A stretch of 45,030 nucleotides of DNA from Terriglobia bacterium. GTDB taxonomy: Bacteria; Acidobacteriota; Terriglobia; UBA7540. Below are positions 1,202 through 7,753 of the stretch, one piece after another. Position numbers and translations under genes: made by a program. Location: NCBI GenBank assembly GCA_035712365.1, contig DASTAW010000036.1, positions 1 through 45,030 of the forward strand, in the 5' to 3' direction. Under the pieces are notes generated by a model. The model worked only from the letters and a program-made list of their open reading frames with translations, was not told the origin of the DNA and did no database searches. Each line of letters starts with the position of its first letter. Position 1 is the first letter of the stretch.

Positions 1202-1363
1202 CTTCCGGCTTTCCTGCTGACCTTCTCCGCGGGGCCAGTAGCCTGGCAAAGCCTCTCGCTTTGCCATACCGCAAACGCTATAATGCGGCCATTTGCGTCA
1301 CCTGCGGCATAGGCCATGATGCCTCGGCTATCGCACAACGGTGGATCGACAGGAGAGATGACG

Positions 1364-2227
1364 ATGGGGAAGATCAGCAACTCCTGGGAACTGGTGAAGC
1401 AGAGTTTTGCGGTCCTGCGGCAGGACGAGGAGCTCATGTTGCTGCCGGTGCTGTCCGCGATCTCCTGCGTTGCCGTGACTCTTTCGCTGCTGGCGGGGAG
1501 CGGCTTATTTTATTATCCCCAGATCAAGGCGGCCATTGCCCAACAGGCAGGCTGGCGCCCCAGCAACTACCTCATCGCCGGCGCCATGTTTATTTTTTAC
1601 CTGGCAAATTATTTCGTCATCGTCTTTTTTAACACGGCGCTGGTGAGTGCGGCCTCCATCCGCCTGGAAGGCGGCGATCCCACCGTGCGCGGTGGTCTGC
1701 GGGCTGCGTGGAGCCGATTGGGCGTCATCTTCAAGTGGGCGCTGTTAGCGGCCACGGTGGGCATGGTCCTGCGCATGATTGAAGAACGCTCCAGCCTGAT
1801 CGGGCGGCTGGTAGTTGGCCTGCTGGGCCTGGCCTGGACGCTTGGAACATTCCTGGTGGTCCCCGTGATCGCTTTTGAAAACCTCGGACCCATTGCGGCG
1901 CTTCATCGCTCCGTGGAACTGTTCCGCAAAAATTGGGGCGAGGAAGCAGTGGGCAGCTTCAGTTTCGGTCTCATTTTCACACTGCTGGCTGTGCCGGGGA
2001 TTCTGCTTCCCATTCTGGGCGGGTCGTTTGCGGGAGGCTTTGGCGTGATTCTCGGCAGTTGCCTTATGGTCATCTACTTCATTTTCCTCTCCATCCTCAG
2101 CGCCTCAACGCACGGCATTTTCCTTGCCGCGCTCTATCGCTACGCTACCACCGGCGAAGTCTCTCCTGGCTTCGGACCCAACAGATTGTCCTCCGCCTGG
2201 CAGCCGAAGTTGAGAGGCAGGGATTAG
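1364..2227 (+). CDS. DUF6159-like polytopic membrane protein
   Basis: The protein has 287 aa. The start is placed at the ATG at 1364 (MGKISNSWELVKQSF) because AGGAGA at 1351-1356 is well spaced for it. An ATG six bases earlier is too close, and the longer frame from 1316 has no ribosome binding site. The N-terminus (SWELVKQSFAVLRQDEELMLLPV) is typical of a family of bacterial membrane proteins of unknown function with about six helices, near residues 30-50, 65-100, 125-150, 155-180, 205-235 and 235-270. It may have a structural or membrane-organisation role. A TATAAT at 1279-1284 could be its -10 box. Confidence 0.7.
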   Translation: MGKISNSWELVKQSFAVLRQDEELMLLPVLSAISCVAVTLSLLAGSGLFYYPQIKAAIAQQAGWRPSNYLIAGAMFIFYLANYFVIVFFNTALVSAASIRLEGGDPTVRGGLRAAWSRLGVIFKWALLAATVGMVLRMIEERSSLIGRLVVGLLGLAWTLGTFLVVPVIAFENLGPIAALHRSVELFRKNWGEEAVGSFSFGLIFTLLAVPGILLPILGGSFAGGFGVILGSCLMVIYFIFLSILSASTHGIFLAALYRYATTGEVSPGFGPNRLSSAWQPKLRGRD

Positions 2228-2474
2228 AGACCAGGAATTGGGGATTGCGGAACAGAAGTCGGTGACCCGTCGTTAGCCTTCAGTGGTGGATAGGATGAAT
2301 TCTTGTTTTCTGAGGCGAAGCGGTTGGGCGGTGATACTATTTGCCCCGACTGGCAGTTTCAGAGTTCAGCCTTCAGGAGCAGCACCTCGACACGATGCGG
2401 TAATGGGAGAGATGGGCTGCTGGCTGCGGTGCTCGGTGTGGCGGACCTGGTCCGTGGCGGAGCACTACGTTTTT

Positions 2475-2819
2475 TCATTGGGATACGCTTGCCGAAGCGG
2501 AATGGCGTCGGGTGAACAGACCGAAAATGCCCCGAGCCACTTTAGCCCTCTTGCTGGCGGGTTCGGCCTCGACCTCCACGGTCACTGTTTCGAGTGAATT
2601 GCCGGTGGTACCGAATTCGGCGCCGAGGTTCGGGTCGATCATCACATCAAAAAGCGGCCCGCTGCGCCGATCGTACTTCACGATCAGATTGCAGCCGCGT
2701 TGGCCGGCATAACGGATGGCTTCATCCCGGCTCTCCAGGCTTTCCATGTACTGGATCTGCGCTGTCCACTTGAATTCTGTGCTTTGAATCAGTGAGATCG
2801 TGCTGCTTGTCGTCCCCAT
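2475..2819 (-). CDS. Small paralog A of an unknown family (114 aa)
   Basis: The ATG at 2819 is preceded by a strong GGGAGGA ribosome binding site. Residues about 14-67 match the N-terminal region of the 281-aa protein encoded at 4900-5745. Shared features are a Trp, then Q(Y/F) followed by (M/I)(E/D)S, AI-x-YA, G-x-NLIV and LFDV-x-x-D, roughly 20 identities over 54 residues. The region looks like a compact alpha/beta module. The C-terminus is basic and serine-rich. No known family is recognised. Its upstream region shares a 24-bp box with that of the paralog. It may be soluble, as no signal peptide is seen. Confidence 0.65.
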   Translation of the reverse strand: MGTTSSTISLIQSTEFKWTAQIQYMESLESRDEAIRYAGQRGCNLIVKYDRRSGPLFDVMIDPNLGAEFGTTGNSLETVTVEVEAEPASKRAKVARGIFGLFTRRHSASASVSQ

Positions 2820-2865
2820 AGTATTTCCTCCCGAGGACTATTGAACCAGTATGTGCAAATGTTTG

Positions 2866-2889
2866 CAATGACCCAATAGTACTACAACC
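2866..2889 (-). promoter_or_regulatory. Conserved 24-bp box upstream of paralog A
   Basis: On the coding strand it reads GGTTGTAGTACTATTGGG followed by TCATTG. It matches the box at 5794-5817 at 17 of 24 positions, and differences fall mostly at every second or third base. It begins 46 bp upstream of the ATG at 2819, against 48 bp for the paralog. It could be a promoter core or an operator for a shared regulator. The regulator is not identified. Confidence 0.5.
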
Positions 2890-3006
2890 TTGATTGCACC
2901 CCGTGGCGTCATTCTCCCCGGTGCCGTAGGGCGAAGCGCTGTCTTCTATTTGTCATGTGTTTTCAGTGAGATGCAGGTGTGGTCGAGAGGGGGCCGACGG
3001 CGGCTT

Positions 3007-4764
3007 TCAGCGCAGGCGATCAAAAACGGTCCTTCCCCCTACGATGGTCCGTAATGTCTGGATGCTCCTGATTTGATCGACGGGGCAGGAGAGGTAGTTC
3101 CTGGAGATCACGACCATATCGGCCAGTTTGCCGGGTTCGATCGAGCCCTTCCGTTTTTCGTCAAATGAAAGGTAGGCGCCGTTGAGTGTATACATCCGGA
3201 GCGCCTGCTCGCGGCTGACCCGCTGGCTGGGATTGATGACCGTTCCGTCCACTGTATGTCGTGTGATGGCGACCCACATGCCCAGAAAGGGGTTATAGGG
3301 ATTGGTTGAAGTGTTCGGGCCAAACCCGATCATGTGGTCGGAACCGCCCGCCACCACAACTCCCGCCCGGAACAGCGAGGCAAGTGGAATAAAGTTGGCC
3401 ATCCGCGCCGGCCCAAAAACGTCTTTGATGGCAGGGCCGTCCAGGTAAAGCCATGTCGGCTGGCAATCGAATGAAACTCCCAGCTCTCTGGCGAGCTGGA
3501 TAGCATGAGGATCGGGGAAGTCTCCGTGGGTTACTGTGAAGCGAAGATCGTGGATGGGCTTTTCGCGGTTTGCCGCCTGGTAAGCCTGCAGCAGAAGATC
3601 GGTGGCGCCCCCGCCGGTAGTATGCGCCGTCATCTGCCAGCCGAGTTCGTCTGCCGCCTTCGCCATGGCGACAAGGTTCGCTTCCGGCACGCGAAGCACT
3701 CCTCGATAGTTGGGGTCGTGGTAACCGTATATTTCTGTGTGGGTGCCGTAGGGCGCCCGCAGATAGGCGGTGCCTATGCAGATACCGCCATCTACAAAGG
3801 TTTTCAAGGTCCCGACCCGGTACCAATCGTCTCCCCAACCGGTGGCAAAGGGGATCTGCAGGATCGAGTTCCGCACGTCGGACGGCGTGCCCTGCGCGTC
3901 GATTACATACGTCACATAACACCGGGCGGTAAGCTTGCCTTCGCGGTCAAGCTGCTGGTAGGCGCGAAATCCCGGCGGCCCTTCGGCCCGATCGATGATG
4001 CTGGTGATGCCAGCTTCATTGTAGTGGTGCAGCATGGTTTGAAGCGCCCACAGGCGGTCCTGCGGCGTGGCGGGTGGCGTAGCCCTCAGTGGCGCCAGAA
4101 GTTCCGGAGCGCCAAGGACCAGTCCGGTGGGTCTGCCTTGCGCATCTTTGATGATTTTCCCGTCGGCTGGCTGAGGGGTGCTGCTGGAGATGCCAATTTC
4201 CTTCAGCGCGGCCGAATTCAGGACCGAGGCGTAACCGTTGTCCACAATCACGGGCCGGTCCGCAGCCGCCACGTCAAGCTCCGCGCGTGTGGGATAACGC
4301 CGCTCCTTGAGCCGCGTCACAAAGACGTGAGGGACCAGGATGACATCCCGGGCCGGGAGCTCCCTGGCGCGATGCCGAATATAGGTTTGAACATCAGGGA
4401 TGGAGTGCAGCGGCGGCGCCTGGCTCTCCCGCTCACCTAGAGCGGCTTCTATCGGGTGGCAGTGGCTATCAATAAGGCCGGGCAGCACGCATCGCCCGTG
4501 CAAATCCACCTTCACCGTAGCAGGGCCCGCCGTCCGGAGCACATCCTTGTCGGAACCGATGTTCGCAAACCGGTCTCCCTGAATGGCCACGGCCTCGACT
4601 ACCGGACGTGCGGCGCACATGGTGATAATGACGCCATTGTAGTAGATCGTGTCGGGAGGCTTCTGCGGGGTTGCCCGGGCGGCGACGAAGAAAGCGCACG
4701 CCGTTACGAGAAAACTGGCGCTGCCGATGGCAGTGACGGAAGGTCCTTTCGTAGATCGGGACAT
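3007..4764 (-). CDS. Secreted YtcJ-like amidohydrolase (Amidohydro_3)
   Basis: The protein has 585 aa from the ATG at 4764. That start gives an N-terminal signal peptide (MSRSTKGPSVTAIGSASFLV...), whereas the frame extending to 4878 adds an unlikely leader. Typical elements follow: an NG(V/I)I(I)TM start strand, GLIDSHCHP with the metal-binding HCH at residues 101-103, a THGD segment, GGSDHM near the C-terminal part of the barrel, and an EPGKLADMVVIS ending typical of cyclic amidohydrolases. The YtcJ-like group hydrolyses amide or related bonds in varied substrates, and the substrate here cannot be inferred. It lies between two paralogous unknown genes on the same strand. The ribosome binding site is weak. 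Confidence 0.88.
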   Translation of the reverse strand: MSRSTKGPSVTAIGSASFLVTACAFFVAARATPQKPPDTIYYNGVIITMCAARPVVEAVAIQGDRFANIGSDKDVLRTAGPATVKVDLHGRCVLPGLIDSHCHPIEAALGERESQAPPLHSIPDVQTYIRHRARELPARDVILVPHVFVTRLKERRYPTRAELDVAAADRPVIVDNGYASVLNSAALKEIGISSSTPQPADGKIIKDAQGRPTGLVLGAPELLAPLRATPPATPQDRLWALQTMLHHYNEAGITSIIDRAEGPPGFRAYQQLDREGKLTARCYVTYVIDAQGTPSDVRNSILQIPFATGWGDDWYRVGTLKTFVDGGICIGTAYLRAPYGTHTEIYGYHDPNYRGVLRVPEANLVAMAKAADELGWQMTAHTTGGGATDLLLQAYQAANREKPIHDLRFTVTHGDFPDPHAIQLARELGVSFDCQPTWLYLDGPAIKDVFGPARMANFIPLASLFRAGVVVAGGSDHMIGFGPNTSTNPYNPFLGMWVAITRHTVDGTVINPSQRVSREQALRMYTLNGAYLSFDEKRKGSIEPGKLADMVVISRNYLSCPVDQIRSIQTLRTIVGGRTVFDRLR

Positions 4765-4899
4765 CGCAACCTGGTTCGGAAAATGTTTTGTCCGGCCGAG
4801 GTCCGCAAGGATTTGAGCCGAGGCATAACGATAGCATAGTTGCAGGGCAACCGTGCGGGCAGGATGCCGGGGTTGCAAGGCGGCGTTGGCGAGGGCTAA

Positions 4900-5745
4900 T
4901 CAGTCGAGCTGAGAAGTATTTGCGTTGCGCGATACCGCAACTGCCTCGACGTTGCCGTGGAAGGCACGTACGAGATGAGCGCGTCGAAGATTGCTGGCAG
5001 CCTGAAGAACGACGGGGGCGACCTCCGGGTTCAGGAAAACGGCGGCAGCGGCGGCAAAGCGAGTGGCAAAGTTCGAAAAAGTCACCAGCGGACTGTTCCA
5101 TGCGCGGCGAATTGCGCCTGCGATGTCTGCCTGCCGGCACTCCTCAATGCCCTTGAGTAGTCGCGGGGCGATTTCGCGTGCATACAGACCGTCGAGGCAG
5201 GCCGCAAAGCGTTTGGCGAAATCGGACGCCGAGCCGTGCGAGTGCCTATGCTGCCAGCGCCTGAATGCAAGGGCGCTGTTTGACCACCAGCAGCGGCTGG
5301 CCGCGCGGTGGACGGAAGGGGCTACCCGGTTCCCAAGGTTATGCACGCCCCCATAGATAGGACTGGCCCAAACTCCGCGAATGCTGCGGTACGCATCCGT
5401 CCAGCAGCGCTGGCTGGCTAACGCCGCGGCGGACCGCTTGTACGCACGCCAGGCAGTTAAAGCCATATGGATTGCCCACCCGTGGACCTCGGGTTCGATA
5501 AGAACCTCTTCGGTATGAGTTGATTCCAGGTTGAGCTCTTCGGTGCAGGCCTCGTCGATATCCAGCAACACGTCAAAGAGTTCCCCAGTTCCCTCATTAC
5601 GCTCGACGATCAGGTTGTAACCGTGCTTGATAGCATAGTCGATTGCTGATCCCTTCGTGCTGAATGAATCGATGAACTGGACTCGCGGCCGCCAGCGGAA
5701 AGATTCACCTGGAATGATGGAAAGCGGACTGTGTTCCCCCACCAT
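4900..5745 (-). CDS. Paralog B of the unknown family, with long basic C-terminal extension (281 aa)
   Basis: The ATG at 5745 has a strong GGGAGGAG ribosome binding site. Residues about 13-66 are homologous to the small protein at 2475-2819 (F-x-W, Q(F/Y), G-x-NLIV, LFDV-x-x-D). An acidic linker (EACTEELNLESTHTEE) follows. The remaining roughly 190 residues are Ala/Arg/Trp-rich and predicted helical, with repeated RAW and (F)A(A)R-type segments and no membrane helix. No family is recognised. Codon quality in the C-terminal part is less convincing than at the N-terminus, but the frame is open to the end. It could bind nucleic acid or a partner through its basic helices. That role is speculation. 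Confidence 0.6.
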   Translation of the reverse strand: MVGEHSPLSIIPGESFRWRPRVQFIDSFSTKGSAIDYAIKHGYNLIVERNEGTGELFDVLLDIDEACTEELNLESTHTEEVLIEPEVHGWAIHMALTAWRAYKRSAAALASQRCWTDAYRSIRGVWASPIYGGVHNLGNRVAPSVHRAASRCWWSNSALAFRRWQHRHSHGSASDFAKRFAACLDGLYAREIAPRLLKGIEECRQADIAGAIRRAWNSPLVTFSNFATRFAAAAAVFLNPEVAPVVLQAASNLRRAHLVRAFHGNVEAVAVSRNANTSQLD

Positions 5746-6051
5746 GGTCTCCTCCCTACAGGTGTAGATTGAAGCCTAACTTAACTCTTCAAACAATCGC
5801 CCGATGGTGCTACTACCATTGGCCATCACAAGATGATTTGTCGAATGAGCGACTTGCAGTCACGATCGGCAAAGAGGGGAATTTGTTCCCAGGGTAGCCC
5901 TGAAATCCAGGCAAGTCTGTTGTGGCGCCCGCCTTAGAGAGGAGCGGATTGCAATCTGCTTGTTAGACGGGACTCAACCCCGGACAGGGTACACGAAAGG
6001 CTGTCTTATCGAATTCAAGCGGTTTACCGGACCGCCTGTGGCGCATTGGAC
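5746..6051. other. Intergenic region with a near-palindrome inside a tRNA-Cys-like stretch
   Basis: No gene is supported here apart from the upstream elements of the 5745 gene. AGCGGATTGCAATCTGCT at 5943-5960 is palindromic apart from one G-T pair. With the following GACGGGACTCAACCCCGG it resembles the anticodon and T arms of a tRNA-Cys (anticodon GCA). The acceptor and D arms do not fold, so this is not a functional tRNA as it stands. Confidence 0.35.
5794..5817 (-). promoter_or_regulatory. Conserved 24-bp box upstream of paralog B
   Basis: On the coding strand it reads GGTAGTAGCACCATCGGG followed by CGATTG. It is the counterpart of the box at 2866-2889 (17 of 24 identical) and begins 48 bp from the ATG at 5745. 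The 5' leaders downstream also share TTCAAT and the GGGAGGA ribosome binding region, suggesting a duplicated and still co-regulated promoter. Confidence 0.5.
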
Positions 6052-7161
6052 CTATTTCGTGCCGGGAAGCCCATGGGGCGGCAACCTTTCGGCGGTTGCA
6101 CGGGCCGGTTTGGCATCAGTGCAGCGCCCGTCTGACGGCTGGTAGCCCGCCGTCAGGGCGGATGCTTGCGCCATCAACTGCCCGGGCCTGTTGCCGAACA
6201 GAACATCGTTCCGGCAGTAGTAAAAGCCAAACTCCTTCTTGGCCCAGACCTGCACGCCGCCTTCAGCTTTTGGCGCGTCCAGCGGTTTCTTCGGAAGCAA
6301 AGCGAGTGGTTCCGCTCCCGGTGTTGACCCGGTTCGGGCGCCCGCCGGTCGCTGTGGCTCGATAGGCAAATCGCTGGCCAGCGCTTCGTTGGGCTGTTTA
6401 TAGGTGCAATGGCCCACAGACGGCCGGTAACCTGCCGATAGGGCGTCGGACTGCGACATCAACTTGCCCGGTTTATCGCCGAACAGGTTTTCGCCCTGAC
6501 AGTAATAATAGCCAAACTCCTTGATCGCCCATACCCTGATACCTGAGTCTGCATTTGAGATATCCAGCGGTTTCGCCAAACCTCGATCGAGCGCCTCCTC
6601 CTGAGGCGTTGACATGCTTGCCTGCTCAGGCTGTTGCTGGTCCTCCGGCGGTGGACCGCCAGAGGCCGCCACCATTTGCTGGCCGCCCGCGCAGTAATCG
6701 CCGCCGAAAGGCCGATATCCTGATGTCAGAGCGTCAACTTGCGTCATCGTTGTCCCCGGCTCGCTGCCGAACAGAGTACCACCCTGGCAGTAATAGAAGC
6801 CTGACTGCGTCCTTGCCCATACACTCACGCGCTCACCTTCCCTGGGCAACGATGGCGGTTTCTGCTTCCGGGAAAACGAGAAGATCTGAGCCAATGTCGG
6901 CAAGCCCTCCGTTTCAATCAGCCAGGTCTTGACTGGGGTCGAATAGAGCACGAGGAAGCCGACCAACAGCAGCAGAAAGGCGGGAACCAGCGGGTTTGAG
7001 GTGATGGGAGAATGCGTTGACGGAGACGGCTTGTAGTGGCCATCCTTCGATCCTGTATGCGATAGAGAGCCGTCTCCTTTCAGCAGGCCGAGGACCAGTT
7101 TCGTTGTCAGGTCGAGAGGCTTTTCCAGGATCGCGAAGATTTGCCTGTTGAACAGCTCCAT
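6052..7161 (-). CDS. Membrane-anchored protein with three two-cysteine repeat modules
   Basis: The protein has 369 aa. The ATG at 7161 follows AAAGGA at good spacing. A cytoplasmic-like N-terminus leads to a membrane helix at about 58-76. Three modules follow at about 112-157, 209-252 and 304-347. Each runs VWA(K/R), then FG(F/Y)YYC(Q/R), LFG-x-x-PG, MxQ, AL-x-x-GY(R/Q)P and ends in Cys. The two Cys of each module are 31 or 32 residues apart, and modules recur every 95-97 residues, joined by Pro/Gln/Ala-rich linkers. The pattern resembles short Cys-containing tails seen on some secreted proteins, and a disulfide or metal site is plausible. It lies 121 bp downstream of a pilin-like gene on the same strand and may be co-expressed with it. 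Confidence 0.75.
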   Translation of the reverse strand: MELFNRQIFAILEKPLDLTTKLVLGLLKGDGSLSHTGSKDGHYKPSPSTHSPITSNPLVPAFLLLLVGFLVLYSTPVKTWLIETEGLPTLAQIFSFSRKQKPPSLPREGERVSVWARTQSGFYYCQGGTLFGSEPGTTMTQVDALTSGYRPFGGDYCAGGQQMVAASGGPPPEDQQQPEQASMSTPQEEALDRGLAKPLDISNADSGIRVWAIKEFGYYYCQGENLFGDKPGKLMSQSDALSAGYRPSVGHCTYKQPNEALASDLPIEPQRPAGARTGSTPGAEPLALLPKKPLDAPKAEGGVQVWAKKEFGFYYCRNDVLFGNRPGQLMAQASALTAGYQPSDGRCTDAKPARATAERLPPHGLPGTK

Positions 7162-7282: not shown

Positions 7283-7753
7283 CTAGTGGTCTTTGTGGAC
7301 CTTTCCGCTTCCATTGTCATGGCCGTCATGGGTGCCGCCATTGCCGCCGCCTGAACCGCCGTAGCCGCCACCCGATCCATTTCCAAGGCCGGACCCGTGG
7401 CCATTTCCGGAACCATTTCCGCCGCCGTTCCCATGGCCGTGTCCATGACCGTGCCCATGACCCGATCCTTGGCCACCGCTCGAGTCACCAGCGCCACCCG
7501 GGTCCGGTTGGTCCGGCGAACCGGAGTTATTCCCCGCAGCGGCCTCGCCAGCCGCATCGGAGTTGCTGGACGATCGGTGTCCTGCTACTGCAGCCATCGT
7601 TGAAGACGCGCTCGCGTAGCTTTTGTGCACCGTGGCTTCCATGATTTGAAGCACGGCAACCACAACCAGGGTTACCAGGATGAACATCAATGCATATTCT
7701 GCGGAATCCTGGCCTTTCTGTTCGTGCCATGACCTTTTCAGGAATTTCTCCAT
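7283..7753 (-). CDS. Flp/Tad-pilin-like small protein with Gly/His/Asn-rich tail
   Basis: The protein has 156 aa. AAGGAGGGGG precedes the ATG at 7753. Residues 1-45 match a Flp-type (type IVb) pilin or TadE-like start: a basic stretch, then GQDSAEYALMFILVTLVVVAVL, with the conserved (G)Q(D/G)-x-x-EYAL before a hydrophobic helix. After about residue 60 the sequence turns into low-complexity Ser/Asp, then Gly/His/Asn repeats that include five consecutive Gly-His dipeptides. Flp pilins are usually about 50-70 aa, so the tail is an unusual addition. It could display a metal-binding or flexible region at the cell surface. No Tad assembly genes are in the window, so function as a true pilin is uncertain. 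Confidence 0.75.
   Translation of the reverse strand: MEKFLKRSWHEQKGQDSAEYALMFILVTLVVVAVLQIMEATVHKSYASASSTMAAVAGHRSSSNSDAAGEAAAGNNSGSPDQPDPGGAGDSSGGQGSGHGHGHGHGHGNGGGNGSGNGHGSGLGNGSGGGYGGSGGGNGGTHDGHDNGSGKVHKDH

Follow-up and report, generated by a model that had tools for sequence, protein, structure and literature searches.

Two paralogous genes and their putative promoters

A stretch of 45,030 nucleotides (positions 1-45,030 of contig DASTAW010000036.1) from a Terriglobia bacterium (Acidobacteriota; Terriglobia; UBA7540; GenBank assembly GCA_035712365.1), referred to here as the window, carries two paralogous genes, denoted A and B, that are preceded by nearly the same 24-bp box. We consider it reasonably likely that this box comprises a 21-bp operator abutting the -35 element of two weak sigma-70-type promoters, and that a single activator switches both genes. 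The evidence comes from the genome of the window (G000) and two other genomes of the same genus (G001 and G002), three species and six leaders in all. The window genes are called A0 and B0 where they are compared with their counterparts A1/B1 in G001 and A2/B2 in G002; a third member in G002 is called C2.

Gene A (positions 2475-2819, minus strand) is an open frame of 114 amino acids, consisting of an acidic head (residues 1-90; isoelectric point (pI) 4.6) and a 24-amino-acid basic tail. Gene B (4900-5745, minus strand), an open frame of 281 amino acids, combines a head homologous to that of A with a long basic tail. BLASTP aligns the two proteins with 37 identities over 110 positions (E=7e-15), about 22 of which, counted on that alignment, fall within the first 57 aligned residues; the common head is approximately 90 residues long. 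On this alignment, A and B are true, old paralogues, and a search of the 4.67-Mb genome at E<=10 recovered no copy besides these two. The first-pass annotation of this DNA, which placed the two open frames at the same positions, counted about 20 identities over 54 residues in the N-terminal modules and described GGGAGGA ribosome binding sites, is borne out on these points, including the presence of GGGAGGA ahead of both start codons.

The box of gene A, GGTTGTAGTACTATTGGGTCATTG, occupies positions 2866-2889 on the minus strand, and that of gene B, GGTAGTAGCACCATCGGGCGATTG, positions 5794-5817 on the same strand. By our count, 18 of the 24 letters are identical (17 in the earlier count), and the distances of 46 and 48 bp from the ATG codons are as previously given. 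The box is the best 24-mer pair common to the two 150-nucleotide leaders, and an equally good pair was obtained in 4 of 1000 dinucleotide shuffles of these leaders; judged from the window alone, it appears moderately significant. It becomes clear with the addition of the four orthologous leaders because, when the leaders are aligned on the box, A-versus-B identity reaches 164/216 within it, whereas it is near chance on either side, at 134/540 over the preceding 60 bases and at 53/180 in the promoter spacer. This pattern contradicts the notion that the likeness of the leaders is a leftover of a recent duplication: although A and B are paralogues, the sequence around the box has drifted to chance identity and the proteins themselves are only about one third identical, so that this explanation is almost certainly wrong.

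The box is present in all six A and B leaders and ends 43-48 nucleotides ahead of the start codon in each. At letters 4 and 9, the A leaders of all three species read T and T, and the B leaders read A and C. As these letters are fixed by gene, the A-type and B-type boxes probably were distinct before the three species diverged. Inspection by eye for GGT-N6-ACY and ATCG-NN-CGAT revealed no perfect dyad valid in all six boxes, and therefore no regulator family was inferred from the box.

Immediately downstream of the 21-bp operator-like part (2869-2889 ahead of gene A), the six leaders share a promoter-like layout, with TTG at -35, a 17-bp spacer, TnnAAT at -10 and a G at -14, the extended -10 position. 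For gene A, the -35-like hexamer TTGCAA (2863-2868, minus strand), the TTG of which is the end of the box, is followed by the -10-like hexamer TTCAAT (2840-2845, minus strand); for gene B, the corresponding elements are TTGTTT (5791-5796, minus strand) and TTCAAT (5768-5773, minus strand). The -10-like hexamer is TTCAAT in four leaders, and TTGAAT and TCTAAT in the remaining two, and A and B agree at 45 of 54 positions of this element. The spacing between the box and the -10 is free of insertions and deletions in all six leaders. Matches to consensus number 3-4 of 6 for the -35 hexamers and 4-5 of 6 for the -10 hexamers by our own count; by this measure, the core promoters of A and B are weak.

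The near-constant distance from the box to the start codon would also suit an RNA element of the 5' leader, such as a riboswitch or a protein-binding mRNA leader. However, the six leaders give no signal of RNA structure (z-scores from -0.97 to +0.73) and no Rfam match at E<=1, and the predicted transcription start lies downstream of the box. Moreover, the distance from the -10 to the ATG varies (20, 20, 18, 22, 22 and 17), whereas that from the box to the -10 is constant. We regard an RNA element as highly improbable.

Specificity of the box

An ambiguity-code pattern of the box (International Union of Pure and Applied Chemistry (IUPAC) letters), searched with up to three mismatches, yielded two sites in G000, two in G002 and three in G001; six of these seven fall in the leaders of A and B, and the reversed pattern, used as a control, gave no site in the three genomes. 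The seventh site, on contig 139 of G001, has three mismatches, lies inside a 261-amino-acid frame on one strand, lacks the promoter layout and was not returned by a profile of the 60-nucleotide leaders; it was set aside. At E<=5, the leader profile detected nothing further in G000, G001 or G002 among the 137 first-look candidates scored per genome. In an unfiltered scan of the window, the A and B leaders scored 48.2 and 44.9 bits, followed by a match of 8.1 bits. Across 37 other genomes of the order, the profile produced 18 weak rows, spread over 15 of these genomes (E>=0.043), which we take as chance matches, the frames near 2 of the 18 rows being without the head module. The box was not found in viral contigs. 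Within these detection limits, the box is specific to the A and B leaders in the genomes examined. The genome scan suggested in the first-pass annotation thus returned the A and B leaders and, besides them, the single three-mismatch site of G001 with no promoter next to it.

Proposed regulation

We propose that A and B would each be transcribed from their own weak sigma-70-type promoter, with the 21-bp operator GGTWGTAGYACYNNNGGNNNA set directly against the TTG of the -35 and held at a fixed placement relative to the -35 and -10 in the six leaders. One trans-acting regulator would bind both operators and switch on A and B in parallel at any chromosomal location. The first-pass annotation had suggested co-regulation, and the retention of the box at both genes in three species, together with the absence, within the limits of the searches, of any other box with this promoter layout in those genomes, strengthens that suggestion: A and B are probably co-regulated by one regulator.

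The regulator would most likely act as a class II activator. In class II activator-dependent sigma-70 promoters, the activator site abuts or overlaps the -35, the core elements are weak and the spacing to the -10 is fixed. The A and B promoters resemble these in that the site lies against the -35 with fixed spacing to the -10 in 6/6 leaders, and in that the core appears weak by sequence. The sequence of the box is not known to match any described site. Published examples of class II activators include the AraC-family RamA/MarA and the SARP-family AfsR (PMC8811837, PMC10936776, PMC12052159); the A/B system differs from these in having two sites per genome.

The poor quality of the -35 and -10 elements favours an activator. 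A site that touches the -35 would fit repression as well, with the box acting as an operator that blocks the -35 of both promoters until a signal derepresses the genes. Good core elements are frequent among repressed promoters, whereas the core elements of A and B are weak. Furthermore, conservation covers the 21 bp upstream of the TTG but, when A is compared with B, is absent from the spacer that separates the -35 from the -10, an arrangement often seen with activators that bind upstream. Neither point is decisive, and we consider repression a possible but not very likely explanation.

Another possibility is that an alternative sigma factor recognizes the box as a whole, with TnnAAT being incidental. 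No other block in the leaders is as strongly conserved as the box, which is rare in the genomes, the -35 and -10 hexamers are weak, and in G001 a gene encoding sigma-70 regions 2 and 4 (L013:4385-5062; PF08281, E=2.6e-13) is located about 1.6 kb from A1. Yet neither G000 nor G002 has a match to this gene better than 33% identity, and it is therefore not a conserved partner. The presence of TnnAAT and the G at a fixed spacing from the TTG in 6/6 leaders, neither of which would be needed by a factor reading only the box, and the similarity of the -10 elements of A and B argue against this reading; two sites per genome are also few for a sigma factor. Altogether, an alternative sigma factor seems unlikely.

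The sigma gene near A1 has a second copy in the same genome, 72% identical, at G001:C1:27366-28034, which is interrupted by two TAG codons. A frame encoding a winged-helix protein of the OmpR type (PF00486, E=1.5e-12) is also located near A1.

Several considerations weigh against the activator model, to which we now return. The sample comprises three species and six leaders, and the promoter is inferred from sequence, with predicted start positions only. A scan of positions 2300-6200 at 9 of 12 consensus matches found no promoter site, with 1.2 expected in shuffled sequence, and the promoter call therefore rests on conservation and spacing. No regulator was found, the neighbourhoods being otherwise viewed by eye. 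The pattern and the profile were built from the same six leaders, so that they find those sites by construction and only the absence of further sites is informative; for the profile, 137 of 207 (G000), 275 (G001) and 319 (G002) first-look candidates were scored. The leader of C2 (L015, unfiltered scan) has no profile match, although alignment puts a stretch of partial similarity at this place. The box would be a DNA site bound by a protein, and activation is the more likely of two modes of action that sequence does not tell apart. Finally, the A and B proteins may work together, a reading suggested by the common head and the common switch.

Distribution of the family

Contrary to the possibility, considered in the first-pass annotation, that homologues of the module might be confined to this locus, orthologues of both A and B were identified in both congeneric genomes. 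The expectation that the box would precede other family members held for six of the seven, the exception being C2 (L011:1477-1863), a diverged protein without a recognizable box. In G002, C2 is followed by a gene encoding an XRE-type helix-turn-helix protein (L011:2335-2991; PF01381, E=5.9e-11).

A search of 61 relatives recovered real members in 3 genomes; one additional match, in G042, was rejected as chance, being located in a 570-amino-acid protein of a different kind. Among 40 genomes of the order, the same number, three, contained real members, and three gave weak matches (E 0.017-0.059) that were dismissed on inspection by eye: one looked like a winged-helix protein, another like a TIM-barrel protein, and the third was unrecognized. 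The 399 genomes of the class yielded 3 with real members and 6 with weak matches (E 0.0015-0.0082), likewise discarded by eye (three PHP-type, one GDSL-type, one SDR and one unrecognized). A draw of 396 genomes across the phylum gave a match in the genome of the window alone, the other two genus members evidently not having been drawn. A search of GTDB contigs with a few peptide patterns revealed no member beyond one record taken as G001's own, there were no protein matches in viral contigs, and plasmids gave no match. So far, among the genomes searched, the family appears restricted to one genus, with no credible member beyond it.

No Pfam family matched any of the seven members above the gathering score, the window proteins A and B had no NCBIfam match at E<=1, and none of the seven matched PADLOC at E<=0.5, in agreement with the earlier view that the module belongs to no named family. 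PHROGs returned five unnamed families (best E=0.0039, in 2 of the 7 members). A limited literature search, covering listings and the beginnings of abstracts, found no published description of the gene pair, and the A/B family is apparently undescribed as well as lineage-restricted.

Heads and tails of the A and B proteins

Where omega (dN/dS) gives a usable estimate, it indicates purifying selection on the head modules, with values from 0.13 to 0.35 in four of the six orthologous comparisons, the other two being saturated; for the head of gene A compared with A2, omega is 0.29. The B tails give values of 0.30 to 0.40. For the short tail of A, the estimates of 0.74, 3.6 and 0.91 come from 26 codons and show no clear constraint. 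The heads of the six A and B proteins are acidic (pI 4.4-5.6; 6.6 in C2), and the tails are basic (pI 10.9-12.0; 8.7 in C2).

The head module of B (residues 1-86; 5488-5745, minus strand) is predicted, from models of B1 and B0, to adopt a beta-(short helix)-beta-alpha-beta-beta arrangement. In the AlphaFold2 model of B1, the mean predicted local distance difference test score (pLDDT) of the head is 72, with block means of 83-91 over residues 11-60. The basic tail of B (residues 91-281; 4903-5475, minus strand) spans 191 amino acids with a pI of 11.3 and a repeat of approximately 50 residues. The best repeat offset is 50 in B0, 101 and 50 in B2, and 18 in B1, and in each B protein it exceeds 200/200 shuffles, by which criterion the tail of B is a repeat array. 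The first-pass annotation described a long basic helical extension in only one of the two genes. Its basic character and its restriction to B are upheld, whereas the helices are predicted at low confidence (mean pLDDT 46 in the B0 model, with 201 of 281 residues below 50). A can be viewed as a head-only form and B as a head joined to a predicted helical repeat array. The tail of B1 (L009:838-1806) has its best offset at 18 residues where those of B0 and B2 repeat at about 50, which suggests that the array turns over rapidly.

Comparisons with known structures and families produced no decisive assignment for the head. Foldseek gave no E-value below 0.39, and structure comparison reached a VIA Z of 5.4. 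A sequence search of the PDB found nothing meaningful, with a best E of 0.23 (a diabody) followed by NDUFS4 at 0.38; part of the B tail matched granulysin by sequence at E=0.035. A weak likeness to NDUS4 (PF04800, the NDUFS4 domain of complex I) extends over about 30 residues in five of the seven members (best E=0.01). With 16.5 bits it reaches about half of the gathering score (31.9), and it covers about one third of the profile; by score, membership in NDUS4 is thus not supported, and no NDUFS4 chain is among the fold matches listed. The predicted order of strands and helix also recalls the small secreted or envelope domains YahO (VIA Z 5.4), RcsF (5.1) and the SPOR domain of RlpA (4.2). However, these Z values are in the range of common arrangements, sequence identity is 9-17%, and no Foldseek match supports the relationship.

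As a speculation that we hold to be quite unlikely in its full form, A and B could constitute a genus-private two-protein system with a dedicated regulator and just two target promoters per genome, in which the proteins would co-assemble through the acidic head, with B scaffolding a polymer, membrane or nucleic acid and A capping or tuning the assembly.

The amidohydrolase and other neighbours

Along the minus strand, the genes are arranged in the order B, amidohydrolase, A. The amidohydrolase gene (3007-4764, minus strand, counted from the ATG at 4764) belongs to Amidohydro_3 (PF07969; E=3.4e-88, 297.6 bits against a gathering score of 29.7), is an ordinary member of this family of metal-dependent hydrolases, and encodes an N-terminus that, judged by eye only, resembles a signal peptide. 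G000 and G002 share the same-strand order B-amidohydrolase-A, the enzyme being 83% identical between them, and these are the only genomes in which Amidohydro_3 was seen together with A or B. This conservation is what would be expected if B, the amidohydrolase and A formed one functional, co-regulated cassette, as the first-pass annotation proposed. However, neither the genome pattern search nor the unfiltered profile scan of the window found a box at the amidohydrolase. In G001, A1 and B1 lie on different contigs among different neighbours, both boxes persist, and the enzyme has no match at E<=1e-30. Because the G001 assembly is 93% complete and A1 is located 2.4 kb from a contig end, absence of the enzyme from G001 is likely rather than proven. 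The proposed unit thus finds no support as regards the enzyme, a cassette of all three genes is very improbable, and the amidohydrolase looks like an optional neighbour rather than a fixed part of the pair.

A1 adjoins a DUF6159 gene (PF19656, E=1.1e-52), as does gene A in the window (1316-2227, E=5.9e-55). On the other side of the pair, the window contains a gene (6052-7161, minus strand) for a 369-amino-acid protein that has no Pfam match above the cut-off. Its N-terminus includes a hydrophobic stretch, and it contains three repeats, each about 85 residues long; by eye, the repeats follow the pattern VWA..qFGfYYC...LFG..PG.lM.Q.dAL.aGYrPs...C, and a similar gene is found in G002 (L012:3837-4943). 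A further gene (7283-7753, minus strand) encodes an N-terminus similar to Flp/class III pilins (PF04021, E=0.0026, below the cut-off) and a Gly/His/Ser-rich tail, and it too has a similar gene in G002 (L012:2951-3430).

Significance

The comparison of paralogues and orthologues alone thus yields a clean operator-plus-promoter footprint in little-studied bacteria. The regulatory logic is ordinary, whereas the protein family and its regulator look new. The footprint marks a lineage-restricted family, the two members of which are very probably expressed together.

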